Positions 178 through 23,030 of a DNA stretch of 24,915 nt are shown here, in pieces. This DNA is from a virus, in IMG/VR virus record IMGVR_UViG_3300032285_001329, positions 1-24,915 of that record; one strand, written 5' to 3'. The notes beneath the pieces were generated by a model. The model was not told the origin of the DNA and did not search any database. It was given only the letters and a program-made list of their open reading frames with translations. Each line of letters opens with the position of its first letter. Within the stretch, counting starts at the first letter, position 1. A program made the translations under genes and the position numbers.

Positions 178-747
178 TTACCAAACCCAAGATACAAATG
201 TATCTCTAACGCCTTTTTTAACTGGAGACACACGATGAGGATATAAAAAAACAGATGGAAATATCATAATTTCTCCAGCTTTAATTTTGTACTCTTTTTC
301 TTCATCAAACATAAGAAATTCACCACCTTCATAATCATTATTTAATGATCCAACGATTGAAAGTATAGGAATGCCTCTTCTTTCTCCTTCAAAAAGAGAA
401 TGAATATGGTCGCAATGAATTGCCATTAATTGACCTTCTTTATATCTATTAAATCTAACTGAAGAAAATCCTTCCCAAGATCCAAAGTAATTAGTTGCAA
501 AATCTTCTGCTATGTACTTATAGATAACTTCCCAAATTTTTTGCATTAATTCTTTTTTGCTATGAATTTCCTCATAAGAAATATCTAATTCTTTGCTACC
601 ACTCATTGAAATATTATTTTTGTTTGTAACATTGTAAAATGTATGTTTTTTCCAATTTGCGAGTTCTAATTCTTTTCTTATTTTTTCACAAAAATCTTCA
701 TCAAGCGATTGATATATTTTAATGTAATCTTCTAATTTTTTAGTCAA
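178..747 (-). CDS. 2-oxoglutarate/Fe(II)-dependent dioxygenase, prolyl-4-hydroxylase-like
   Basis: This 189-aa protein has the double-stranded beta-helix signature of 2OG-Fe(II) oxygenases. The HxD metal pair is H111-C-D113, after the typical RFNRYKEGQ strand. The third ligand is H171 in YPHRVSPV, and R181 sits where the 2-oxoglutarate-binding Arg is expected. GGEFLMF and AGEIMIFPS are the usual strands between them. Enzymes of this family use O2 and 2OG to hydroxylate protein, nucleic acid or small-molecule substrates; the substrate here cannot be read from sequence. The start is TTG at 747, which overlaps the stop of the upstream gene and has GGAG at a good distance. The gene is visibly more AT-rich than the replication genes and sits beside a second family member, which suggests acquired cargo. 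Confidence 0.85.
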   Translation of the reverse strand: MTKKLEDYIKIYQSLDEDFCEKIRKELELANWKKHTFYNVTNKNNISMSGSKELDISYEEIHSKKELMQKIWEVIYKYIAEDFATNYFGSWEGFSSVRFNRYKEGQLMAIHCDHIHSLFEGERRGIPILSIVGSLNNDYEGGEFLMFDEEKEYKIKAGEIMIFPSVFLYPHRVSPVKKGVRDTFVSWVW

Positions 748-1357
748 TTTTTAACTCCGTGAAATTTTCTTTGCTTCCAAAAATTCCTTTAATAAATGTA
801 TTAAATGCAAGACAAATTCTTGTTTCTTCAGTAACAACTTCTTGAACATCATGAGCCAAATTTGATGGAAAAGCACATATACGACCAGTATAAACAGGAA
901 ACCACCAAGATTCTGCATTGTGTTTATCAAATTCAGTGCTATAAAATGATAATCGCGGATAACTATTTTTATGAAAATAAATTTTATCTTGATCTCCATC
1001 AGCGTTTATATAAAGAGTGCCCGATATAAAGCTATTTGAATGTTCGTGTTTATGGTGGTATTCGCCTTTTTTTGTAAAGCTTAACCATGATTGAGTAATA
1101 TATGCTTCAGCAGGATAGCTTGGCTTATATACCTTTTTAAGGTACACATTAACAAATTCAGTTATTTCTTTTTTTAGATTTGCAAATTCAGGTTCATCAA
1201 GAATATAACTATTTATACTTACCATATTTCCATAATTTTTTTTTATCTCTTTTGAATGTTTTTCTACAAAAGAAATTTCTTCTTTAGTAAAATCTCTATC
1301 TAAATCAGAAAACATAACAGTTGTAGGAAAAAGTAATTCAATTGATGGCTCTTTCAT
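740..1357 (-). CDS. Second putative 2OG-Fe(II) oxygenase (TIGR02466-like)
   Basis: The protein has 205 aa. It begins with a short segment ending in LLFPTTV, as is common in the TIGR02466 / 2OG-FeII_Oxy_5 group. The likely metal-binding strand is SWLSFTKKGEYHHKHEHSN followed by SGTLY (residues 90-115), with candidate ligands H102, H104 and H106. The distal His is H169 in SNLAHDV, and R180 in ETRICLAFN is the likely 2OG-binding Arg. These are family-level resemblances and the exact ligands are uncertain. A good ribosome site (GAAGGA) precedes the ATG. The stop overlaps the start of the neighbouring dioxygenase gene by 8 bases, so the two are probably translated together. It is AT-rich like its partner. 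The substrate is unknown. Confidence 0.75.
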   Translation of the reverse strand: MKEPSIELLFPTTVMFSDLDRDFTKEEISFVEKHSKEIKKNYGNMVSINSYILDEPEFANLKKEITEFVNVYLKKVYKPSYPAEAYITQSWLSFTKKGEYHHKHEHSNSFISGTLYINADGDQDKIYFHKNSYPRLSFYSTEFDKHNAESWWFPVYTGRICAFPSNLAHDVQEVVTEETRICLAFNTFIKGIFGSKENFTELKID

Positions 1358-1366
1358 TTTTATCCT

Positions 1367-1735
1367 TCAATAAAAAATATGATTATTGATGACTACTTTA
1401 ACAGGTTTGTGAAGAGCCCAAATAGGCTTGGGTTTAAGATTGACTTCATGAAAGTGATAGGCTCCTTTCGATGTGTCGTTTATTTTTAACGACATAATTT
1501 GTTGTGCTAGTAATATAAATGGTCTCAGTTCGTAAGAGCCACGCTCAGGTGGCTTAATCTTACCATACCAAGAAAATTGATAAGGTCTTGACATCTCTGC
1601 ACAGACTCTATTTGGATTAAAGTCAGCTCTTCGATACAACACCATTCCTACGGCAATTTGACCAGCTTGAGGCTCACCGCGTGCCTCCATGAACATTGTC
1701 TGCGCCAAACATGTAAGCGCTAGAGTTTCTATCAT
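1367..1735 (-). CDS. Cell wall hydrolase, SleB family (probable endolysin)
   Basis: The 122-aa protein matches the SleB-type hydrolase core. FMEARGEPQAGQIAVGMV near the N-terminus contains the candidate catalytic glutamate E17 in EARGE. It is followed by VC and the QFSW motif typical of the family, then AYHFHEV and KPIWA. Proteins of this family cleave the glycan backbone of peptidoglycan. In a phage this is most simply the endolysin. The protein is essentially the catalytic domain alone and has no clear cleaved signal peptide, so release through a holin would be expected. A very strong AAGGAGG ribosome site (1741-1747) precedes the start. It lies upstream of the two dioxygenases and a partial membrane protein in the leftward operon. 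Confidence 0.88.
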   Translation of the reverse strand: MIETLALTCLAQTMFMEARGEPQAGQIAVGMVLYRRADFNPNRVCAEMSRPYQFSWYGKIKPPERGSYELRPFILLAQQIMSLKINDTSKGAYHFHEVNLKPKPIWALHKPVKVVINNHIFY

Positions 1736-1771
1736 GATTACCTCCTTGTTAAGGGCTCTTTGCGTGAGAGC

Positions 1772-1999
1772 TTACTTGTTATCCTCCAAGACTCTTGCGA
1801 TGTCTTTATTCATGGAAGCTACAATTTCTACGCATCGAGCATGCTCTTTAAGACGAACACTGTCAGAAATAACAGCTTCAATCTTACGAGCATATTCTAA
1901 GATGTCTAATGGCTCACCTTGTGGGTCTGTATACAAACCATTAGGGTCATCGTTGTTACAATAAAAAAATATCTGTTTTATCAAGTCTTCGTTAATCAT
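1772..1999 (-). CDS. Small hypothetical protein (75 aa)
   Basis: I do not recognise a family. The protein is acidic, begins with INEDLIKQIFFYCNN, and then has a helical half (residues 32-70) with regularly spaced charged residues and the phrase DSVRLKEHARCVEIVASM. Proteins with a C-terminal 'EHARC' helix of this kind are common as short phage hypotheticals. It sits in the leftward operon between the exonuclease and the endolysin genes with a short gap on each side. A weak AGGAGTAAAT-type ribosome site lies before the ATG. Confidence 0.7.
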   Translation of the reverse strand: MINEDLIKQIFFYCNNDDPNGLYTDPQGEPLDILEYARKIEAVISDSVRLKEHARCVEIVASMNKDIARVLEDNK

Positions 2000-2007
2000 A
2001 TTTACTC

Positions 2008-2814
2008 CTACTTATATTTATTCTTTAATTGCCAATACTTCAGTAACGAACAAAACATTTCAAATCCTCGTGTCAAGTCCTCTTCAGTCCATTCGATTAT
2101 TTTGCAGAGACCTGCCGTGTTGCGAGAAACGAAAATGTTGGCACATCTTGCGTGAGGTATGCCGAGCCCTACTCGATATGCAGATAATTGCATTAAGTGT
2201 TCATCATAGGCTAACACATCCTTAGGGTCTGTAAAGTCTTTTGTCTTAATATCGACCACAATCCCATTGCCAGTAGGGTCAATTTGTGCATGTAAGTCAC
2301 ATTTTCCTGCAAAACCTAATTCATGACCAAAAGAACGCTCAGCAATCCATCCAATCCTTCCATATTGCTCTTCTAACGCACGAACGCATCCTTGGACATG
2401 ATCTTGATACTTATCGTGGCTTCTGCCCTCAAAAAACGATTCTATAGCTGTATGGATGTCTGTACCTAAATTAGCTGCATCCCTACCCTGTTGTTTAGAA
2501 TCTTGAATGATTCGGTCAATATAGTCTTGCTCTGATTCGCCTTCTCTTTTTGTGGAGGTTAAAGCTGCCATAAGCACTTGAGTTTGCATCCAAGCAACCA
2601 ATGCAGGTTTAGCCGCAACACCTAAAATAGTAGTCACGGATGGCACTAAGTCCATAGTTCTAGCATCTCTTAGCGTGGTATTGCGCTCATTTCCATTCTT
2701 ACCTATGACTGTATACTGCGGTATACCATCTCTTGTGTACCAATGGTTTGATTCAGAAGCTCGAATCTTTGGTGGCTCTGATGCGTAAAATAAACTTTTG
2801 CTTTGTTCAGTCAT
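2008..2814 (-). CDS. PD-(D/E)XK exonuclease, RecB/Cas4-like
   Basis: The 268-aa protein carries the motifs of phage RecB-like nucleases. They are a VPSVTTIL segment near residue 58, GTDIHTAIE (117-125) with the helix-borne His, and E165-LGFAGKCDL with D173. The core VVDIKTK follows, with D188-x-K190, and then the QLSAYR motif at 209-214. This spacing fits a Mg2+-dependent exonuclease that processes DNA ends in recombination or replication. The neighbouring SSB-like protein and the rest of the leftward operon support a recombination module, though no annealase is recognised. The start at 2814 has GGAG about 7 bases upstream and overlaps the preceding gene by 8 bases. Confidence 0.85.
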   Translation of the reverse strand: MTEQSKSLFYASEPPKIRASESNHWYTRDGIPQYTVIGKNGNERNTTLRDARTMDLVPSVTTILGVAAKPALVAWMQTQVLMAALTSTKREGESEQDYIDRIIQDSKQQGRDAANLGTDIHTAIESFFEGRSHDKYQDHVQGCVRALEEQYGRIGWIAERSFGHELGFAGKCDLHAQIDPTGNGIVVDIKTKDFTDPKDVLAYDEHLMQLSAYRVGLGIPHARCANIFVSRNTAGLCKIIEWTEEDLTRGFEMFCSLLKYWQLKNKYK

Positions 2815-3070
2815 TTTTAAACTCCATATCTAATTCATCGGTATGTTTAATTACATCATCAAATTCTTTATCTGTTGTGCCTCTATATGTATAGTGCATA
2901 GCATTCTTTTGAATTTCACCATCATGGATGTCTAGCGCGCCATCAAAAATAAATCCACATCCCTTTAAAAATATTTCCATGTTAGCTATTACATCACCTA
3001 AATCATCAGACTCAAACTTTAATGTATTTTTATAGCCATCATCTTTCATTTCAAATTTGTACTTAGTCAT
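2807..3070 (-). CDS. Small acidic hypothetical protein (87 aa)
   Basis: No family is recognised. The protein is acidic, with a beta-rich first half (KYKFEMKDDGYKNTLKFES) and a helix around DLGDVIANMEIFLKGCGF. This resembles the short proteins often found beside phage nucleases. It overlaps the exonuclease start by 8 bases, so translational coupling is likely. The gene lies only 2 bases after the stop of the DUF3310 fusion gene. Confidence 0.72.
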   Translation of the reverse strand: MTKYKFEMKDDGYKNTLKFESDDLGDVIANMEIFLKGCGFIFDGALDIHDGEIQKNAMHYTYRGTTDKEFDDVIKHTDELDMEFKND

Positions 3071-3072
3071 AA

Positions 3073-3747
3073 TTATCTTTCAGTTAAAAATCTGTGAAGT
3101 TCTTTTGAATACCACTCTATCTTTCCTGCATCTTCGCTTGATTCACCTTTAAGACCTATGCGACTTGTATACTTCATAATGTTGCCACGCAAATATCCAA
3201 CATACTCTTCAGGTGAAAGCTTGGCTCTGATGTATTCTATGGTTTCTATTCCTCCTTGCGTATAGTGCGGAGGGTGATTGACCATGTCAGGTTTTGGCTT
3301 GTCCTTATTTTCTCTATCTATTTCCAAGTGTCTCTCCTTATGATGTCTTTTACATAGCCACACAACATCAAGTGGTTTGTTATAATCTTCATGGTGGGCA
3401 ACTACATGCTCTGTAGTGCCACATCGTTCACAAGGCTGTCTAACTAATCTACCTGTTTGAACCGCATAAGCTACGTCTTGATGTGCTTTTTGTTTTAGCT
3501 TATTTTCTTGAAGCCAAAACTTTTTATTAGGCGCAATCTGTTTAAAAGACAAAAGCTTTTTATTACCTCTGTTTTCATTAACTTTTTTGTTATGGCAAAT
3601 CTTACACTGACCGCACAGCCCATCTTTGTTAATTGCTGATTTATAAAAGTCTGTAGCAGGCTTTGTTTCATAACAAGCACTACAAATTTTTGTAAACTGT
3701 ATGGGCTGTTGCTCAGGATTATTTGCGTCAGACGCAATAATTGTCAT
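3073..3747 (-). CDS. Zinc-finger / HNH-like / DUF3310 (SaV-like) fusion protein
   Basis: Three modules can be read in this 224-aa protein. Residues 20-55 hold a four-Cys zinc motif (C22, C25, C48, C51, with KICSACYETKPATDFY) of the kind that heads some phage HNH proteins. Residues 104-140 hold a second zinc site (CERCG, VAHHEDY, WLCKRHH), which looks like a small HNH-type fold. Residues 155-224 match DUF3310: VNHPPHYTQGGIETIEYI, then GNIMKYTSRIG and a closing KIEWYSKELHRFL helix. DUF3310 is the family linked to T7 gp1.7, a nucleotide kinase. Whether this copy keeps any catalysis is unknown. The start has no strong Shine-Dalgarno and abuts the SSB-like gene stop, so re-initiation is likely. 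Confidence 0.8.
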   Translation of the reverse strand: MTIIASDANNPEQQPIQFTKICSACYETKPATDFYKSAINKDGLCGQCKICHNKKVNENRGNKKLLSFKQIAPNKKFWLQENKLKQKAHQDVAYAVQTGRLVRQPCERCGTTEHVVAHHEDYNKPLDVVWLCKRHHKERHLEIDRENKDKPKPDMVNHPPHYTQGGIETIEYIRAKLSPEEYVGYLRGNIMKYTSRIGLKGESSEDAGKIEWYSKELHRFLTER

Positions 3748-12607: not shown

Positions 12608-12831
12608 TTCTACTAACAGAAAAAGAGCGACAACTTTTAAAAGAGTCAGCAAGTAACATTAGTCCACACGCATTTCAAAGGCTTATGCCTTCCGAAAGAC
12701 GTGAGTATTGGAATATACTTGATAGAACTATTCATTCACTTATGTTGACGCATCCTGATGCTTTTACAGAAAGAGCTGTAGAAGAGATGGATAAGAAGAT
12801 GCGCGACAGACAATCTTATGCGAGATACTAA
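12604..12831 (+). CDS. Small hypothetical protein (75 aa)
   Basis: The protein is helical and basic. It contains MPSERREYWNILDRTIHSLML and a final DKKMRDRQSYARY helix. No family is recognised. The start overlaps the methyltransferase stop as ATGA with AAGGAGG just upstream, and the stop overlaps the next gene as TAATG. Both ends fit an expressed operon gene. Confidence 0.68.
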   Translation: MILLTEKERQLLKESASNISPHAFQRLMPSERREYWNILDRTIHSLMLTHPDAFTERAVEEMDKKMRDRQSYARY

Positions 12832-13013
12832 TGGCTACACAGACAATACATAAAAGCAAAAGGCATGCCAACCCCACACAAACAAAGAACGGCCGCCCTA
12901 AGCTCAAGGCATTCGATTTAAAGGCATTATATGCATTACTCGAGAAGACAGAAAAGGGCAAGAAGCGTCATAAGATAGCCAAAGAGATAGCTAGAAAAAC
13001 TAGCATAGGTTAA
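12831..13013 (+). CDS. Very basic small protein (60 aa)
   Basis: Lys and Arg make up a large share of the protein (KSKRHANPTQTKNGRPKLK, then KKRHKIAKEIARK), so nucleic-acid binding is likely. No family is recognised. It is the last gene of the rightward operon before the pqqA region. Its start overlaps the previous stop. Confidence 0.62.
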   Translation: MATQTIHKSKRHANPTQTKNGRPKLKAFDLKALYALLEKTEKGKKRHKIAKEIARKTSIG

Positions 13014-13026
13014 TGGTTTTCTTGAT

Positions 13027-13054
13027 GCGTACGATAAAGCGTACGATTTATAGT
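13027..13054. promoter_or_regulatory. Direct repeats and possible promoter upstream of pqqA
   Basis: GCGTACGAT occurs twice (13027-13035 and 13039-13047), 12 bp apart, and each copy contains the palindrome CGTACG. Just downstream is TATAGT (13049-13054), a fair -10 box with no good -35 partner, so an activator bound to the repeats could replace the -35. The two CGTACG also allow a 6-bp hairpin with a 6-base loop. Read-through from the operon is an alternative source of pqqA transcription. Confidence 0.4.
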
Positions 13055-13076
13055 GTTATCTGAAAGGAGAACGACT

Positions 13077-13148
13077 ATGTGGACAAAGCCAACAGCGACT
13101 GAAATGCGTTTCGGTTTCGAAATAACTATGTACGTAATGAACAAGTAA
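13077..13148 (+). CDS. pqqA: PqqA, precursor peptide of pyrroloquinoline quinone
   Basis: This is a 23-codon gene with an excellent AAAGGAGA ribosome site (13063-13070). The product starts MWTKP, continues with an EMR segment and FGFEITMY, and ends in MNK. The length and the E15-x3-Y19 spacing are those of canonical PqqA. Known biology of the family: the radical SAM enzyme PqqE, with PqqD, joins this Glu and Tyr, and PqqB, PqqF/G and PqqC finish PQQ. PQQ is the cofactor of periplasmic methanol and other alcohol/sugar dehydrogenases. No other pqq gene is in the window, so the phage must rely on host enzymes. The W2, K4, P5, F14, E15, T17 and Y19 positions all fit the family. The peptide is short, but so many matching positions make chance unlikely. 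The gene lies between operons with its own control signals. Confidence 0.9.
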   Translation: MWTKPTATEMRFGFEITMYVMNK

Positions 13149-13315: not shown

Positions 13316-13594
13316 ATGAAAACATTAGAAAAAACAACACAAGTAGACACATTAGGTTTACTTTTAGCTCAAATCGCTGAACTAGAATCAAAAGCTTCAG
13401 CAATCAAACAATCCCTTAAAGAAGATGGTGCAGGCGTATACGAAGGCTCAATGTTCAAGGCCAACGTAATCGTTTCTAACCGCGCTACAGTGGACTTCAA
13501 ACAAGTATTCGCAGAATGCTCAGTTCCAGCAGAGGTTATTGCTCGCAATACCAAAGCTCAAGAAATCGTAACTGTTAAATTAACTTCAAGATAA
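13316..13594 (+). CDS. Small phage protein with N-terminal coiled coil (92 aa)
   Basis: The N-terminal half is a helix with a heptad-like pattern (LLLAQIAELESKASAIKQSL). It is followed by GAGVYEGSMFKANVIVSNRATVDF, a phrase that recurs in short phage proteins of unknown role, and a final VTVKLTSR strand. The codons are less AT-biased than those of the cargo genes. It is the first gene behind the promoter at 13242-13270, with AAGGAAAAC before its ATG. Confidence 0.75.
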   Translation: MKTLEKTTQVDTLGLLLAQIAELESKASAIKQSLKEDGAGVYEGSMFKANVIVSNRATVDFKQVFAECSVPAEVIARNTKAQEIVTVKLTSR

Positions 13595-14254: not shown

Positions 14255-14388
14255 GCTTTATGATTATTGATGTGATAACAGAGGAAATTGTTGTAAGTGA
14301 TTTTGAATATAGAACTCATGCTGAGTCATGGATTGAAGTGCATGGTAAAGATTATCCTGACGCAGAACTTCAAATAGAAAGGGCTTAA
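14251..14388 (+). CDS. Tiny hypothetical protein (45 aa)
   Basis: This short ATG frame overlaps the previous stop as ATGA and has a GTAGGAGATAA ribosome site. The product (MSFMIIDVITEEIVV, then a helix with HAESWIEVH) is a plausible small alpha/beta peptide. The codon pattern and placement argue that it is real. No family is recognised. Confidence 0.6.
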   Translation: MSFMIIDVITEEIVVSDFEYRTHAESWIEVHGKDYPDAELQIERA

Positions 14389-14390
14389 TT

Positions 14391-14663
14391 ATGATAGGCA
14401 CAAAAGAAAATATTAAGATAGGTGACATCGTTAGAGCTTATGACTTTCAACCTCGCGAAGGTTGTCCTGATTGTTTTATCATTGGAAAGGTAACTGACCT
14501 TGATGGATCATTCTTTGTTGCAGACACTTTGGCTCGTGTTTGGAACGGTAAAATTGATACCCAACAAAACGACAAGAGTCAAGTGACACATAGCTTCCGT
14601 GCGTTATGCCAAAACGAAATGGGCTTTGATAAAGAGTACGAACGTGTTACAATACTAGCATGA
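14391..14663 (+). CDS. Hypothetical protein (90 aa), beta-rich
   Basis: KIGDIVRAYDFQPREGCPDCFIIG opens a beta-rich domain with a Cys pair (CPDC). It is followed by GKVTDLDGSFFVADTLARVW and a C-terminal YERVTILA strand. It resembles short phage proteins of SH3-like fold and unknown role. The stop overlaps the next gene (ATGAG). Confidence 0.7.
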   Translation: MIGTKENIKIGDIVRAYDFQPREGCPDCFIIGKVTDLDGSFFVADTLARVWNGKIDTQQNDKSQVTHSFRALCQNEMGFDKEYERVTILA

Positions 14664-15157: not shown

Positions 15158-15186
15158 TTGACTTCTCACTATTGTCCGTTTACATT
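15158..15186 (+). promoter_or_regulatory. Possible late promoter for the packaging/head module
   Basis: TTGACT (15158-15163) and TACATT (15181-15186) are 17 bases apart. A start near 15193 would leave only a few bases before the ATG at 15197, which has no Shine-Dalgarno, so the message may be leaderless. The box quality is moderate. Confidence 0.45.
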
Positions 15187-15196
15187 CGTATCTATT

Positions 15197-15769
15197 ATGG
15201 TAGATAAGAAGATAACAAAAGCTAATGTAGTGACATCTTACGAAGGTAAGGATGCTATTAAGCCCATTGTAGAGACACAAGTTCAATCCGATGACTGTGT
15301 AAAGAATAAAGGTGGTAGACCTACACTTTACAGTCTACAGATTGCTTTGGAGATATGTGACAGGATTGCAGACGGCGAGTCTCTTGTAAGTATTTGCAGA
15401 GACGAGCGTATGCCGAAGAAGACTGCGGTGTACGAGTGGCTGTTGCGCCACGAAGAGTTCGCGGAGATATATGCGCGCGCGAGGGAAGACCAAGCCGACA
15501 CATTGGCTGACGAAATCCACGCAATCAGTGACGAACTTCCCCAACAGATTGTTGATGACAAAGGTAAGACTCGTTATGACTCAGCTTACGTTCAATGGCA
15601 AAAGAATCGCGTAGACGCACGCAAGTGGGTTGCTGCCAAACTCAAACCTAAAAAGTATTCAGACCGCATTGCTCATGTTGGCGACAAAGAAGCTGACGGC
15701 ATTCAGGTCAATGTAAACATCTTTGACGAGATGCTAAAGAACTTAGAGCTTAAACGCCAAGCAAAATGA
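15197..15769 (+). CDS. terS: Terminase small subunit
   Basis: From ATG 15197 the protein has 190 aa. A TTG at 15158 in frame is possible but coincides with the -35 box. After a variable N-terminus comes GGRPTLYSLQIALEICDRIADGESLVSICRDE, a helix-turn-helix DNA-binding domain. KTAVYEWLLRHEEFAEIYARAREDQADTLADEI follows, an oligomerisation helix with the 'YARARE.QAD.L..EI' signature of phage small terminases. It ends with DARKWVAAKLKPKKYSDRI. It would recognise the packaging site and present DNA to the large subunit, whose gene follows with a 4-base overlap. Confidence 0.9.
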   Translation: MVDKKITKANVVTSYEGKDAIKPIVETQVQSDDCVKNKGGRPTLYSLQIALEICDRIADGESLVSICRDERMPKKTAVYEWLLRHEEFAEIYARAREDQADTLADEIHAISDELPQQIVDDKGKTRYDSAYVQWQKNRVDARKWVAAKLKPKKYSDRIAHVGDKEADGIQVNVNIFDEMLKNLELKRQAK

Positions 15770-17214
15770 CAGACGTTGTAGAGCTTCTTAAAGACAAAGA
15801 GATAGAAGCGCAGTTCAAGTCACTGCCAATTGCAAAACAAGTCGCGATAGCGTGGCGTATGAAGTGGTTAACTAAAGCGCATGATCACCAAATACTTCCA
15901 CACGGTGACTGGGCTATTTGGTTATTGTTAGGCGGACGGGGAGCAGGTAAGACAAGAACCTCTGCTGAACAGATTGGATGGTGGGCGTGGGAACAACCGG
16001 GCACGCGATGGTTAGTATCCGCACCGACAGCAATGGATGTACGTGGTACATGTATAGAGGGTGAATCAGGATTGCTTAACGTGATACCTGAGATGCTTGT
16101 TGCAGACTATAACAAGTCATTGCTCGAGATCAAGCTAACTAATGGCTCATTGATCAAAGGCATATCAGCGTCAGAACCTGATCGCTTTCGTGGTGGACAA
16201 TACCACGGTGCATGGCTAGATGAGTTAGCTGCATGGGATTACTTACAAGAAGCATGGGACATGATTATGTTCTCCGTGCGATTAGGACAGAACACAAAGA
16301 TTATTGCATCAACGACACCAAGGCCTAAAGACTTGATCGTTGACTTAGTAGGAAGGGCTGACGATGGCTCAGGCGAAGTAGTGATGTCAACTGCATCCAC
16401 TTACGCCAACATCGACAACCTAGCGCCAAGCTTCCAACAACAGATCCTTCAGTACGAAGGAACGAAGCTAGGACGACAAGAGATTTACGCTGAGCTTATT
16501 GATCCTGAAGAAGGTGGGATTGTTAAGCGTGATATGTTTAAACTTTGGGATGCACGTAAACCATTCCCTAAATTTGAATACATCATTCAGTCATATGATT
16601 GTGCTTATACCGAGAAGACAATCAATGACCCAACGGCTTGCTTAGTGTTTGGATTGTTCAAACCTACAGACGGCCCTATGTCAGTGATGCTGATAGATGC
16701 ATGGCAAGAACGCATGCAGTATCCTGATCTAAGACGAAAGGTGCGTGACGAGTATGAAGTTAGTTATGGTGCAGATAGCGAGTCCGACACAGGAGACTTT
16801 GTCAAAGGTAAGCGAGTTGATCTCATCCTTGTCGAAGATAAAGCGGCTGGAATCAGTCTCATACAAGATATGCAACGGGCGCATTTACCAGTGCGAGCTT
16901 ACAATCCCGGTAGAGCGGACAAAGTACAGCGACTATCCATTGTTGCAAACATTATCGCTCATGGACGCGTGTGGATTCCCGAGTCAACAGTACGACGTGG
17001 ATATGTACGTGATTGGGCCGAGGGCTTTGTCTCGCAGATATGTTCGTTTCCTGAAGCAACGCATGATGACTATGTGGATGCATGTACTCAAGCGCTTAGG
17101 TATCTTAGAGACGCAGGGCTGTTAAGTATAGATGCTCCACCAAGAGATGACTATGAAGACTATGCAGACGCTTACGGATACCAAGAACAAAGAGTAAACC
17201 CATACGCCGTATGA
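15766..17214 (+). CDS. terL: Terminase large subunit (ATPase and nuclease)
   Basis: The 482-aa protein is complete. The ATPase half has LLLGGRGAGKTRT (Walker A, 56-63), GAWLDELAAW (Walker B near 149-156) and IIASTTPRP (coupling motif). The nuclease half has acidic residues in SYDCAYTEK (near 277), LILVEDKAAG (near 352) and HDDYVDACTQALRYL (433-447). It pumps DNA into the procapsid and cuts the concatemer. The sequence type is the Terminase_6-like group common in P22-like and marine podo/siphoviruses. The ending of the gene and the next 150 bases are discussed under the neighbouring small frames. Confidence 0.95.
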   Translation: MTDVVELLKDKEIEAQFKSLPIAKQVAIAWRMKWLTKAHDHQILPHGDWAIWLLLGGRGAGKTRTSAEQIGWWAWEQPGTRWLVSAPTAMDVRGTCIEGESGLLNVIPEMLVADYNKSLLEIKLTNGSLIKGISASEPDRFRGGQYHGAWLDELAAWDYLQEAWDMIMFSVRLGQNTKIIASTTPRPKDLIVDLVGRADDGSGEVVMSTASTYANIDNLAPSFQQQILQYEGTKLGRQEIYAELIDPEEGGIVKRDMFKLWDARKPFPKFEYIIQSYDCAYTEKTINDPTACLVFGLFKPTDGPMSVMLIDAWQERMQYPDLRRKVRDEYEVSYGADSESDTGDFVKGKRVDLILVEDKAAGISLIQDMQRAHLPVRAYNPGRADKVQRLSIVANIIAHGRVWIPESTVRRGYVRDWAEGFVSQICSFPEATHDDYVDACTQALRYLRDAGLLSIDAPPRDDYEDYADAYGYQEQRVNPYAV

Positions 17215-17405: not shown

Positions 17406-17541
17406 CCTAGACACAAAGAAACAAATATGCAAGACATGTAAACGAACGGAAGATGAGATAGCAAGTTGGTTAGATTACACACCAAGCGAACGCAAAGAGG
17501 TAATGAAACGTATCAAGGACAGACATGGCAGGACTCGGTAG
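17368..17541 (+). CDS. DUF1289-like small zinc protein (57 aa)
   Basis: The frame ATG 17368 to TAG 17541 encodes TPCKNICDLDTKKQICKTCKR, then TEDEIASWLDYTPSERKEVM and an arginine-rich end. C8, C12, C21 and C24 with the 'RT..EI..W....ERK.V' helix are the DUF1289 signature. This is a family of small bacterial Fe-S/zinc proteins of unclear function. It overlaps the following large gene by 17 bases. The frame is open back to about 17270 with protein-like content but no start codon, so an alternative start or frameshift from an upstream gene cannot be excluded. Confidence 0.75.
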   Translation: MAKIVTPCKNICDLDTKKQICKTCKRTEDEIASWLDYTPSERKEVMKRIKDRHGRTR

Positions 17542-20509
17542 TCTCAAGAAGTTAGAGAATGCATTCAAGGTTGCAGCAGACGCAGCTCGTTCTGAAAAGC
17601 CTGCACAGAAAATGTCTGAAGCTTTGAACCCTCATGTAGGTAAACGTCTATACATCACACAAGCAGATAGAACTGCACTTGATTATCCACAAGGATTGTT
17701 AGGTGGCCCGGGCTATACAGAGTTAGCAAACATAGACCCAACTAAATACAAAGACATCGCATGGGCAGTACAGACACCCGGCATTGCTAAGACTATGGTT
17801 GGATCAATGGCTCTCAATCCTGAAGAAGCTATTTGGACAAATCTTATCGGCTCACCAACGCAACACAAATCAAACAAGGTTGTGTTCGACAGAATCATGA
17901 AGCAGTTTACAGACGCAGTTGCTGAAGACAAGCTCACACCTGAATTACATAAAAAGATTAACGACAGACTTGCTAACATCAAAGACCCAAAGACAGGTAA
18001 GGCGTACTTCCCTGAAGATGTGGATGTTCTATCACCTGAGTTCATTAATCACACAACAACATTCCATCAACGCGGAATCATTGCAGACACATTAGCAGGC
18101 AAAGGTGTTGGAGGTGAGAAGGGAACTATCATTGACTTCCCTCGCGCCATTGCAGAAACAACTGACCCATACTTACTCGGTGCACAGACTGGTGACATCG
18201 GTGACAGACTATTCTCATTGTCAGGCAACATCGAACATAGACCTGAATTACATCCTGCATTCCATACATCGTTAGGCGGTCGCCGTGAATCAGAAGCATT
18301 CAAGCCTGCACCACAAGGCATCGTGTTACAAGACTTCATTAAAGACTTTACAGAACGCACAGGTCGCATGCCAACATACTACGACTTAACGCGTGGATAT
18401 GCACCTAATGTAAAAGTTACAGACGAGATGCTTGAGAACTTATCTAAGGCAGGTCACAAAGACGGTGGACACATTAAACCTTTAGAACTAAACATTCCCA
18501 AACTTAAAGAAGGCAATCTTGTATCAAGAGCAATGGAAGGCTATCGTAAGTCAGCAGACTTCCTAAAGAACTTAGGCATACAAGCTTATGAAGAAGCCAA
18601 AGAAGAGTTACCCACATTATTACATCCAAGAGCTATCCCTGATGTTGTAGCTAATGTAGGCGCAGGCATTGCAGGTATTCCAAGTGACATAGCAAACTTA
18701 ATCGTGCCACCGCTTAACGAAGAAGAGGTTCCTAATTACAAACCACAATTCGGTTCAGAAGACTTACAAGAAAGATTAAAACAAAGTGGCATCACAACTG
18801 GTACAGAGCGTCCACTTGTTGAAGGCATTGCAACATTAGCAAGTCCACGAGGTATTGCAAAGACTGGTAAGGAAGTATTAAAGCACGGTGCAAGACTTAT
18901 TGAAGAAGGTCGAGTACCTGGTCTTATCAATCCAAGACAAAATATTATTCCTGAAGTTGGTGGAGACTTTGGTGTAAGTTTCTTTAGGCCGTCCGAAGAC
19001 ACAATAAGAGGTCACAAGATGGATACTATGCCAGGCAATCAATGGCATGCATGGTTACAATCTAATGCACCTAAGTCATCCAAGAAAGAACTTGAAACCG
19101 CTGGCACAATGGATTGGCTTAAAGATAACAAAGACAAAGTAACTAAGACTGACATCATTAATCATCTTAGAGAGAATGAGCCACGATTAAGATCAAAGAC
19201 ATATAAACCATACGGTGATCATCCTTATGAAGTTGTAGGTAGCGATGACACAGGATGGGATGTTGTTGATACAAGTATGGGTGACAAACCAATTAGTTCT
19301 CATGGATCACAAGATGATGCTTATCAAGCTATGCATGAAGTTGTTGATGTAACACATCCTATAAGCAAATATAAAGAATACACACTACCAGGTGGTGAAG
19401 ACTACCGTGAGATTGTTATTCAAGACAAACCTTTTGGAATTGCGCTCAATAAAAGTTCGCCGGAAGTTGTTGAAGAGGCAATTAGATCATATGGAGAAAG
19501 TGCACTGCCAAGATTAAGTGAATCTCAGTGGAATATTATTGCAAAAAGATTAAATACAAAATTTGAATCATCACATTTCCCTGAAGCTACAAATCCTATT
19601 GCACATTTACGCGTAAACCATAGAGAAGATGCAAATGGTAATCCAACACTATTCATTGAAGAGCTCCAATCTGATTGGGGACAAAAAGGTAAGAAACAGG
19701 GCTTTGATACAGGTGTCACAATTAAAAAAGACGCAAATGATATGTATAGGGCATATGATGGTAATGGAAATTTAATTGAACTTCGACCTTCAAATAATGA
19801 AGGACCTTTTGTTGCTATGTCTACAGAAGAAAAAGTTAGAGAAGCACTTCCAACATCATTTGTATCAAAAGGCATTCCTAAAGGCCCTTACGTTCAAGAT
19901 ACTAAAGATTGGACTGCATTAGCACTTAAACAAGCTATCAAAGAAGCAGTAGACAATGGCAAGACACAAGTAGCTTGGACAACAGGTACACAACAAGCAG
20001 AGCGTTATGATTTAAGCAGACATTTATCGAGTGTATCTCTTAGACCTTCAGAATATAGTAAAGACAAAGTTCATCTTATGGCAATTGACCACGATGGAAA
20101 TCCAGTCATAGAAAAAACTGTTAAAGAAAATGAATTAGATAATTACATTGGTAAAGACTTAGCTAACAAATTAATTAATACACCTACAGGAGGAACTTCA
20201 AACATAAGAAGGCTTGAAGGTCTTGACATTAAAGTTGGTGGCGAAGGTATGAAAGGATACTACGACCAAATACTTCCACAAGTTGCTAATGATGTAATTA
20301 AACAACTTGGCGGTAAAAACAAAGTAAAACCAATGAATATTCTTTTAAACGATTTAGGTGATGACTATGGCAAGAGTGAACAATTAGGTTTTGAAATCAC
20401 ACCTGAGATGATCAAGTTTATTAAAGAAGAAGCAGGCATACCTAAATTTAAACAAGGTGGCAAGATTGATTTAGAAACAGAATTTAAACTAAGGAGACAT
20501 TATGGCTGA
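17525..20509 (+). CDS. Large polyvalent-type protein (994 aa), probably carried in the virion
   Basis: The C-terminal half has the hallmarks of phage polyvalent proteins. There is a PGNQWHAWLQSNAPKSSKKELE / VTKTDIINHLRENEP segment (about 505-560). ATNPIAHLRVNHREDANG with LFIEELQSDWGQKG lies near 685-720, AWTTGTQQAERYDL near 816-829, and VGGEGMKGYYDQILPQ near 903-918. The N-terminal 500 residues are less recognisable. They include an alanine/glycine-rich hydrophobic stretch (about 370-395) that might help cross a membrane. The extreme C-terminus is FKQGGKIDLETEFKLRRHYG. Polyvalent proteins are delivered with DNA and protect or modify it in the new host. The position between terminase and portal genes supports packaging in the capsid. 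No catalytic residues can be assigned. Confidence 0.8.
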   Translation: MAGLGSLKKLENAFKVAADAARSEKPAQKMSEALNPHVGKRLYITQADRTALDYPQGLLGGPGYTELANIDPTKYKDIAWAVQTPGIAKTMVGSMALNPEEAIWTNLIGSPTQHKSNKVVFDRIMKQFTDAVAEDKLTPELHKKINDRLANIKDPKTGKAYFPEDVDVLSPEFINHTTTFHQRGIIADTLAGKGVGGEKGTIIDFPRAIAETTDPYLLGAQTGDIGDRLFSLSGNIEHRPELHPAFHTSLGGRRESEAFKPAPQGIVLQDFIKDFTERTGRMPTYYDLTRGYAPNVKVTDEMLENLSKAGHKDGGHIKPLELNIPKLKEGNLVSRAMEGYRKSADFLKNLGIQAYEEAKEELPTLLHPRAIPDVVANVGAGIAGIPSDIANLIVPPLNEEEVPNYKPQFGSEDLQERLKQSGITTGTERPLVEGIATLASPRGIAKTGKEVLKHGARLIEEGRVPGLINPRQNIIPEVGGDFGVSFFRPSEDTIRGHKMDTMPGNQWHAWLQSNAPKSSKKELETAGTMDWLKDNKDKVTKTDIINHLRENEPRLRSKTYKPYGDHPYEVVGSDDTGWDVVDTSMGDKPISSHGSQDDAYQAMHEVVDVTHPISKYKEYTLPGGEDYREIVIQDKPFGIALNKSSPEVVEEAIRSYGESALPRLSESQWNIIAKRLNTKFESSHFPEATNPIAHLRVNHREDANGNPTLFIEELQSDWGQKGKKQGFDTGVTIKKDANDMYRAYDGNGNLIELRPSNNEGPFVAMSTEEKVREALPTSFVSKGIPKGPYVQDTKDWTALALKQAIKEAVDNGKTQVAWTTGTQQAERYDLSRHLSSVSLRPSEYSKDKVHLMAIDHDGNPVIEKTVKENELDNYIGKDLANKLINTPTGGTSNIRRLEGLDIKVGGEGMKGYYDQILPQVANDVIKQLGGKNKVKPMNILLNDLGDDYGKSEQLGFEITPEMIKFIKEEAGIPKFKQGGKIDLETEFKLRRHYG

Positions 20510-23030
20510 GATGCCCATTGACCCTGAATACGGTCGCAACATACCAGGAATGCCTGACCCTGCAAGTCAAGCGCAAGTCACAGAAACGCCTGACGGAGGA
20601 GCTCAAGTTGATCTTATGCAGTTTGATACTGATGTAGAAGAACTTGAAGATGGTTCAGCCGTAGTTCATCTCGATGAATACAAAGGCCCTGCTGAAGATG
20701 AAGATTTCTATTCTAACTTAGCAGAGACAGTCAATCTTTGGGATTTAGAAAAGATTGGCATGCGTTACTTAGACTTAATTAAAAAGGATAAAGAAGCTCG
20801 TGAGAAACGTGATAAACAATATGAAGAAGGTATTCGCAGAACTGGTATGGGTGATGACGCTCCTGGGGGCGCGACTTTTATGGGAGCTTCTAAGGTTGTC
20901 CACCCTGTTATGGCAGAAGCTTGTGTCGACTTCGCTGCATCAGCGATTAAAGAAATGTTTCCGCCTGACGGCCCAGTCAGAACAAAAGTCTTAGGTGAAG
21001 CTACAACAGAAAAGACTGATGTTGCAGAACGCAAACGCGATTACATGAATTGGCAGTTAACTGAACAGATTGAAGAGTTCAGAGACGAACAAGAACAACT
21101 ATTGACACAATTGCCATTAGGCGGTTCACAGTTCATGAAGTTATGGTATGACGAACATAAGAAACGCCCATGCGCAGAGTTCGTGCCTATCGATAACATC
21201 TTACTACCATTCGCATCAGTAAACTTTTACACAGCACAACGTGTCACAGAAATGCAAGACATTACTGAGTGGGAATTTAAACGCAGAATTGCACAAGGCT
21301 TATACCGTGATGTAGATTTCATTCGCGCAACGATGGAGCCTACAGAAACACACGCAGAAAAAGCTACAAACAAAATTGAAGGTCGTAAGTATCAAGATAA
21401 CGAAGACGGTCTACGCCGTGTATTCCACATCTATACATACTTAGAGATTGATGATGACAAACGCACCAAAGGTGAGATGGCTCCATATGTCTTAATGATT
21501 GACGAGCTTGATAATCAAATCTTAGGTCTATATAGAAACTGGGAGGATGGCGATGAAACATATACCAAGCTTGACTGGATTATTGAGTTCAAGTTTATCC
21601 CTTGGAGAGGCGCTTATGCAATTGGCTTGCCTCACCTTATTGGCGGCCTTAGTGCTGCTCTCACTGGTGCTCTTCGTGCTTTATTGGACACTGCTCATAT
21701 TAATAACTCCGCTACCATGCTTAAACTCAAAGGTGCGAAGATTAGCGGACAGTCTCAACAAGTCGAAGTTACTCAAGTCACTGAGATAGAAGGCGCACCT
21801 GGTGTTGATGATGTACGTAAGATTGCAATGCCTATGCCATTCAATCAACCGTCACCAGTATTATTCCAATTACTTGGTTTCTTAAACGATGCTGCAAAAG
21901 GTGTCGTGTCAACTTCTGAAGAGAAGATTGCTGACATGAATGCCAATGCTCCAGTAGGAACTACACAAGCTTTAATTGAGCAAGGCGCAAAAGTATTCTC
22001 AGCAATACATGCGCGTATGCATGATTCACAAAGACGTGTATTACAAGTACTAGGTCGTATCAATCGTTGGTATTTAGATGATATGAAGAAAGGCGATGTT
22101 ATTGCAGAACTTCCTGTGACACGAGATGACTTCAAGAAAAACTCTGACATCATCCCAGTATCAGATCCACATATTTTCTCTGAAACACAACGTATGGCAC
22201 AGAATCAAGCCGTGCTACAACTCATGCAAACATATCCACAAGCGTTTGATGTGAATGCAGTCTTGCAACGCGTATTGAAACAAATGAAAGTGCCAGGTAT
22301 TAATGAATTAATGCCTAACGCACCTAAACCTGTAGAGATGGATTCTGCACATGAAAATGCTGCAATGGCTTTAGGTAAACCTGCGTTTGCATATCCACGC
22401 CAAGATCATCTTGCACATATTCAAGCTCACTTGAATTTTGCAACTGATCCAATGATGGGTTCAAACAACTTGATTGCACCTAAATTCATTCCACAAGTGT
22501 TAGAGCATATCAAGCAACACATGATGCTTTGGTATACAAACCAAATGGAAGGTTATGCTTTTGCTAATCCTAAAATCCAACAAGACAAATATGAAGATTC
22601 TAAATTTGCTTCAGAGATTGACAAGATCATGGCGGTGGCTTCTTCACATGTCAAGATGGATACACAACAAGTGTTTGCTGGTGTTGTACAAGCTATGCAA
22701 CAACTCGGTCAAGTTATGGGTCAATTTGCTCCACAACCACAAGTCGATCCTGCTGACCAAGCTATCTTACAAGCTTCATTAGCTGAGACACAACGTAGAG
22801 CAGCTCGTGATCAAGCTGATATTCAATTAGCACAAGCAAAACTACAAAACGACATTCAGCAAGAAGACAAGGATAGAGAAGTCAAAGTTGCTATGAATGC
22901 CGAAAACAATTTAACAACCGAAAGATTGAAGACAGCAGAACTTACTGTTGACGAACTTAGGTTGCGTAAAGAGCAGGAGCAGACTGCTATTAAACTGCAA
23001 CATGAAACTCAACGTAACTTAGGGAGATAA
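20502..23030 (+). CDS. Portal protein
   Basis: The 842-aa protein is long for a portal, as in P22 (725 aa). After an acidic N-terminus, DLEKIGMRYLDLIKKDKEAREKR leads into the wing/stem region. LIGGLSAALTGALRALLDTAH and NNSATMLKLKGAKI fall where the tunnel helices should be. VVSTSEEKIADMNANAPVGTTQALIEQ is the strongest portal-like phrase. Residues from about 745 onward (QAILQASLAETQRRAARDQ and beyond) form a long coiled coil, a possible barrel extension. Twelve copies would form the DNA gate at one capsid vertex, contacting the terminase. The start has AAGGAG upstream and overlaps the preceding gene by 8 bases. Confidence 0.88.
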   Translation: MAEMPIDPEYGRNIPGMPDPASQAQVTETPDGGAQVDLMQFDTDVEELEDGSAVVHLDEYKGPAEDEDFYSNLAETVNLWDLEKIGMRYLDLIKKDKEAREKRDKQYEEGIRRTGMGDDAPGGATFMGASKVVHPVMAEACVDFAASAIKEMFPPDGPVRTKVLGEATTEKTDVAERKRDYMNWQLTEQIEEFRDEQEQLLTQLPLGGSQFMKLWYDEHKKRPCAEFVPIDNILLPFASVNFYTAQRVTEMQDITEWEFKRRIAQGLYRDVDFIRATMEPTETHAEKATNKIEGRKYQDNEDGLRRVFHIYTYLEIDDDKRTKGEMAPYVLMIDELDNQILGLYRNWEDGDETYTKLDWIIEFKFIPWRGAYAIGLPHLIGGLSAALTGALRALLDTAHINNSATMLKLKGAKISGQSQQVEVTQVTEIEGAPGVDDVRKIAMPMPFNQPSPVLFQLLGFLNDAAKGVVSTSEEKIADMNANAPVGTTQALIEQGAKVFSAIHARMHDSQRRVLQVLGRINRWYLDDMKKGDVIAELPVTRDDFKKNSDIIPVSDPHIFSETQRMAQNQAVLQLMQTYPQAFDVNAVLQRVLKQMKVPGINELMPNAPKPVEMDSAHENAAMALGKPAFAYPRQDHLAHIQAHLNFATDPMMGSNNLIAPKFIPQVLEHIKQHMMLWYTNQMEGYAFANPKIQQDKYEDSKFASEIDKIMAVASSHVKMDTQQVFAGVVQAMQQLGQVMGQFAPQPQVDPADQAILQASLAETQRRAARDQADIQLAQAKLQNDIQQEDKDREVKVAMNAENNLTTERLKTAELTVDELRLRKEQEQTAIKLQHETQRNLGR

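Follow-up and report, generated by a model that had tools for sequence, protein, structure and literature searches.

A phage-encoded PQQ precursor peptide predicted to resupply methylotroph hosts during infection

We analyzed an entire IMG/VR virus record of 24,915 bp, hereafter the window. The 72 bases at 13077-13148 on the plus strand translate to MWTKPTATEMRFGFEITMYVMNK followed by a stop codon. The peptide scored 40.4 bits for the Pfam PqqA family (PF08042; cut-off 21.1, E 2.7e-10), in an alignment that spans residues 1-19 of the peptide and the full model (19 of 19). The locus and the phage genes that accompany it are laid out as follows.

12831-13013, plus strand: 60-aa ORF 5' of pqqA, syntenic in sister phages and 85-90% identical there
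13010-13026, plus strand: degenerate operator copy TTAATGGTTTTCTTGAT, starting 67 nt 5' of the ATG; putative regulatory site
13028-13045, plus strand: short hairpin CGTACGATAAAGCGTACG between operator and start codon; same sequence in sisters L135 and L151
13049-13054, plus strand: candidate -10 box TATAGT, weak and not picked up by the sigma-70 scan
13063-13069, plus strand: Shine-Dalgarno sequence AAAGGAG, 7 nt 5' of the pqqA ATG
13077-13148, plus strand: pqqA, 23-aa PQQ precursor peptide and stop, from translation and Pfam
13316-13594, plus strand: 92-aa ORF 3' of pqqA, syntenic in sisters and also present in cousins without pqqA
15158-15769, plus strand: terminase small subunit, TerS (PHROG 1482, E 2.4e-41)
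15766-17214, plus strand: terminase large subunit, TerL (Pfam Terminase_6N/6C), the query for sister phages
20502-23030, plus strand: portal protein (PHROG 1216, E 3e-23)

The peptide has both E15 and Y19, the ExxxY pair that is cross-linked by PqqE and becomes PQQ. An IUPAC DNA pattern for the family matched the window once and none of 100 shuffles. The gene has the form of a PqqA gene, a short stand-alone ORF (~20-30 aa class) with a ribosome site, and a strong AAAGGAG-type site also lies ahead of most viral copies. It is not adjacent to pqqBCDE. Such adjacency is not a defining requirement for PqqA and its absence is not decisive here, because most pqqA copies in methylotroph hosts also lie away from these genes. 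Of the window ORFs that we scanned against Pfam, PHROGs or both, none was another pqq gene, and PHROGs has no family for the 23-aa peptide. The original prediction, made from the bare sequence, of an intact PqqA peptide in a virus, with the Glu15/Tyr19 pair, a strong ribosome site and no second pqq gene, was thus borne out.

Because TerS, TerL and a portal protein are encoded on it, the contig is that of a phage; it also encodes a DnaB-type helicase, RusA and a DNA methylase. With sister records as long as 53-55 kb, the window is probably about half of the phage genome. Two adjoining 2OG-Fe(II) oxygenase genes occupy its left end (178-1357, minus strand). The region 17525-20509 encodes a 994-aa protein that is probably a large virion-associated protein, and its C-terminal part matches a PHROG endolysin profile of 2564 residues. 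No Rfam families or tRNAs were found near pqqA.

We collected TerL relatives of the window from IMG/VR. The gene was present in every contig that covers the region and has a TerL at least 88% identical. In four of these sisters (L121, L126, L135 and L151) pqqA sits between the same two ORFs as in the window, and the DNA around it is only 73-88% identical among the syntenic sisters. One contig with a 74% identical TerL also carries pqqA. The remaining relatives (TerL 69-75% identical), including records of 42-56 kb, are without it, and several of them keep the 92-aa downstream ORF. Since close sisters keep the same placement and most of the 69-75% relatives are without the gene, pqqA is a stable trait of the window clade, and the gene is not missing from sister phages. 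The 69-75% relatives show that phages of this general type can do without it.

Viral pqqA extends well beyond this clade. A tblastn search of PqqA against 50,697 phage records matched nine records of cultured Methylophilales phages (Venkman, P19250A, MEP301, MEP401, MEP402 and four of Melnitz), in which PqqA is 73-91% identical; these are the cultured methylophages that we found, a set that may omit MEP431-434, phiMB624-A and Venkman EXVC038S, known from taxonomy names. The only other matches were one uncultured phage (MW202481) and two records of Acinetobacter phage MD-2021a (CAKLQF020000010 and CAKLQH020000055). The Acinetobacter records were rejected as host contamination: in CAKLQF020000010, one of the two, a bacterial pqqABCD operon lies beside ppk and is followed by a radical-SAM gene, so that record is bacterial chromosome, and both matches are apparently bacterial DNA. 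The terminases of the cultured isolates are unrelated; Venkman and P19250A have been assigned to a single genus-level cluster (PMC8163748), and we therefore count four lineages. In the IMG/VR collection at least 119 contigs, some as long as 98 kb, 164 kb and 356 kb, matched a PqqA DNA pattern whose chance expectation, estimated from its information content, is well below one. Prevalence figures from these collection scans are lower bounds. The closest matches to the window peptide were PqqA of Methylophilaceae and of their phages.

The gene is unannotated in the P19250A, MEP301, Venkman and MEP401 records, and in Melnitz a spurious opposite-strand ORF was called over it. Annotation pipelines missed pqqA because it has only 23 codons. 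The name pqq is absent from the papers on MEP301, MEP401/402 and Venkman, and in the Melnitz paper PQQ appears solely as a medium additive. Published methylophage records could be corrected at the following positions.

28085-28153, minus strand, in L316 (KX815270, P19250A): pqqA, unannotated
3316-3384, minus strand, in L317 (MW452941): pqqA of a cultured methylophage, not annotated as such
2997-3069, plus strand, in L318: pqqA of a cultured methylophage, not annotated as such
1018-1086, in L319: pqqA of a cultured methylophage, not annotated as such
2501-2569, in L320: pqqA of a cultured methylophage, not annotated as such

All 120 loci of a first scan, the window included, gave an intact 23-aa ORF, with 57 distinct peptides among them. 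E15 and Y19 were invariant in all 129 viral copies found. A second scan in which codons 15 and 19 were left free returned the same 119 stretches and no new locus among the matches listed, and therefore, among these matches, no copy without Glu15 or Tyr19 was seen. The ratio pN/pS was 0.20 in viral pqqA and 0.198 in host pqqA; the retrieval patterns fixed several residues, so that conservation and pN/pS are partly conditioned and the constraint is somewhat overestimated in both sets. The most frequent viral peptide is letter for letter the most frequent Methylophilaceae peptide. Ten contigs (L003, L008, L010, L013, L016, L021, L028, L032, L067 and L105) carry a divergent type, MWxKPxYExxRLGFExTMYFxxR, mostly directly 3' of another gene and without the palindrome described below. 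It probably belongs to phages of other PQQ-making hosts.

Comparison of upstream DNA revealed a 17-bp palindrome, CTMAKGA-WWW-TCMTKAG, ~60-120 nt 5' of the pqqA start codon. We fitted a symmetric matrix on 124 host pqqA upstream regions and counted sites of at least 8 bits, which occurred in 92% of the host upstreams and in 0.6% of shuffles. Out of sample, such a site was present in 58% of 118 distinct viral pqqA upstreams, compared to 0.75% when 800 regions ahead of other viral ORFs were scored (p 9e-47); a control of noncoding viral DNA gave 55% and 0.5%. The palindrome was seen in P19250A, MEP301, Venkman, Melnitz (TTAATGATTATCCTTAG) and MW202481, and was not found upstream of MEP401 pqqA in the matrix scan. 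Viral copies scored lower, with a median of 8.5 bits against 19 for hosts. The copy in the window is degenerate (6.8-8.2 bits); a score as high occurs in ~1% of control stretches, and stronger copies are present in most other methylophages. Its position is the second-best in the entire window, and its sequence is identical in sisters L121, L124, L135 and L151. The best match in the window (14345-14361, GTAAAGATTATCCTGAC, 11.5 bits) precedes a 90-aa ORF at 14391.

In the hosts, the palindrome lies ahead of pqqA and of the pqqBCDE operon. With at most one mismatch allowed, the M. methylotrophus genome has two sites only, one before pqqB (its product confirmed as PqqB by TIGR02108) and one before a pqqA, and both exact matches in Methylophaga thiooxydans precede pqqA. 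A looser pattern found further pqqA sites in both genomes. A near-match in M. methylotrophus (L335, 1501-1517) lies before a TonB-dependent receptor gene (1578-3017), possibly a PQQ or lanthanide uptake gene of the same regulon. In Methylophaga thiooxydans (L328, 1501-3016) the gene after the operator and pqqA encodes a MoxY-like histidine kinase; together with its response regulator, this kinase is a first candidate for the PQQ regulator. Our literature search found no paper describing the 17-bp palindrome. Because viral pqqA often sits behind a copy of this host operator, its transcription is probably carried out by the host and subject to host PQQ control. No consensus sigma-70 promoter was found near the window pqqA; boxes resembling a -10 element at -40 to -85 preceded 33% of viral pqqA genes and 26% of those in hosts, compared to 2% of controls. 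RNA folding of the upstream regions was somewhat stronger than in controls (mean z of -1.08 for viral, -1.35 for host and -0.34 for control stretches), a difference that we do not claim as a defined RNA element.

The viral gene travels alone. In 34 pqqA-bearing viral records nothing reached the cut-off of the pqqE family, nor was any PQQ alcohol dehydrogenase found. Sub-cut-off pqqE matches in two viral records (22-28 bits vs 381) were rejected as generic radical-SAM proteins. In the PQQ pathway, one PqqA is consumed per PQQ molecule. The hosts carry the substrate gene in several copies: each of 18 methylotroph genomes has 2-12 of them, against 1 in Paraburkholderia, and a single strong pqqE was found in M. 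methylotrophus. In Methylophilaceae, 3-12 pqqA copies are accompanied by other pqq genes that are usually single-copy (PMC4109929). Dispersed multi-copy pqqA together with a single pqqBCDE set is what one would expect of a pathway limited by the substrate that it consumes. Because each PQQ uses up one PqqA, hosts would raise the dosage of the substrate gene and the phage would add another copy.

These data are consistent with the following model. The viral gene would encode a functional PqqA, a ribosomal peptide from whose Glu15 and Tyr19 PQQ is built. The catalysts, PqqB, C, D and E, would already be in the host, with the peptide as the stoichiometric substrate. During infection a methylotroph, most likely of the Methylophilaceae, would receive new phage-made PqqA, and its PqqD, E, B and C would keep producing PQQ for the methanol dehydrogenases (XoxF/MxaF), maintaining or raising the PQQ level. 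The energy supply would then persist after host expression declines, presumably to the benefit of the phage. In the many phages with pqqA behind the host PQQ-regulon operator, the gene would be transcribed by host machinery and obey host PQQ control. For the window itself, the pqqA peptide and the operator suggest a Methylophilaceae host; a search with its DNA methylase against 100 Methylophilaceae genomes gave 2 remote matches only and so no independent host link. Judged from sequence, we consider it quite likely that the phage, under host-type control, provides host PqqBCDE with fresh PQQ substrate and so sustains methanol oxidation. The original prediction that the lone gene feeds host enzymes is supported by the viral records without pqqE or PQQ dehydrogenase, the multi-copy host pqqA and the host-type operator.

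A lone pqqA would also be explained if the peptide were a decoy that occupies PqqD or PqqE, lowers host PQQ synthesis and shuts down methanol respiration. Viruses are known to make short mimics that block host enzymes. However, a decoy should lose or alter its reacting residues, and E15 and Y19 are invariant, with no losses revealed when their codons were freed. The commonest viral peptide, being the commonest peptide of Methylophilaceae, should simply be turned over. Host genomes have as many as 12 copies of their own, and viral pqqA is often preceded by the host operator. Since the substrate residues are never lost in the viral copies found, and an intact substrate yields product, we regard this reading, raised in the original prediction as a competing substrate, as disfavored and unlikely. 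The strong enrichment of the palindrome ahead of viral pqqA could instead mean that the palindrome is the selected part, titrating a host PQQ regulator, with the peptide incidental. This is very unlikely: the encoded protein is itself under constraint (pN/pS 0.20), every copy recovered has an open reading frame, and ~40% of viral copies are without a recognizable palindrome yet encode an intact peptide.

Use of PqqA or its product outside methanol dehydrogenases, with PQQ as an antioxidant or signal or in glucose or other PQQ enzymes, would suit the divergent type (RLGFE...YFKNR in L003, L008, L010 and others), which is without the operator and may belong to phages of other hosts. All cultured carriers, however, infect Methylophilales methylotrophs, and the hosts with many pqqA copies are methylotrophs (PMC4109929), so we consider this option improbable. 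Phage collections do contain errors such as the Acinetobacter "phage" record that is a contig with a bacterial operon, and pqqA might likewise be a functionless piece of host DNA, either recently picked up or misassigned to a viral bin. That notion is extremely unlikely and already contradicted by TerS, TerL and the portal gene on the window, by synteny in sisters whose surrounding DNA has diverged to 73-88% identity, by pqqA in complete genomes of cultured phages and by purifying selection on the gene. With the terminase and portal genes, the peptide shared with hosts and the cultured phages, pqqA has the origin expected of a viral auxiliary metabolic gene (AMG): it is a metabolic gene of host descent in the genome of a true virus. 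We favor the resupply of substrate to host PqqBCDE.

Whether viral pqqA genes had been reported was left unverified in the original prediction. They had, in one methylophage: pqqA was found in the Lake Baikal population VP_266, with a predicted Methylophilaceae host and a proposed boost of methanol oxidation (PMC7678222, Coutinho et al. 2020). The idea of a viral pqqA is therefore not new. The gene is also listed among viral genes of reservoir sediment (PMC13188868). Like the window, VP_266 has a virus-borne pqqA without the full pathway, a predicted Methylophilaceae host and the same proposed role. Unlike the window, whose lineage is unrelated, VP_266 is T4-like and encodes a methanol dehydrogenase, whereas the 34 viral records examined here gave no PQQ dehydrogenase. 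The Lake Baikal paper (PMC7678222) states that P19250A lacks its AMGs; contrary to this as regards pqqA, P19250A carries the unannotated copy at 28085-28153. What the present analysis adds is the breadth of the gene among cultured methylophages, a test of the substrate residues and the shared operator. The multi-copy pqqA genes of Methylophilaceae (PMC4109929) resemble the viral ones in being stand-alone 23-aa genes off pqqBCDE, with near-identical peptides and the same palindrome; the viral copies differ in lying on phage genomes and in having operators that are weaker on average.

A comparison can also be drawn with cyanophages. Through psbA, cyanophages supply just the host component that is used fastest and not the entire pathway. 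By analogy, viral pqqA may also replace the part that turns over fastest, although psbA encodes a large photosystem protein and pqqA a consumed peptide substrate. We lean toward the broader reading that at least four unrelated methylophage lineages each took up the consumed PQQ substrate, with many wired into the host PQQ regulon through the 17-bp operator, such that infected cells would treat the viral gene as an extra host pqqA copy.

Each cultured methylophage genome found has pqqA, which suggests a rule, and it is not named as pqqA in any record inspected. The gene offers a simple way to assign hosts to viral contigs, and the shared operator should lead to the regulator of methylotroph PQQ synthesis. 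Cultured phage-host pairs exist, with Venkman or Melnitz on H5P1 and MEP401 on FZCC0133. Collectively, the findings suggest that methanol oxidation in the streamlined OM43 and LD28 bacteria is limited by PqqA supply, and the presence of pqqA in methylophages suggests a general strategy of keeping PQQ supplied during infection.
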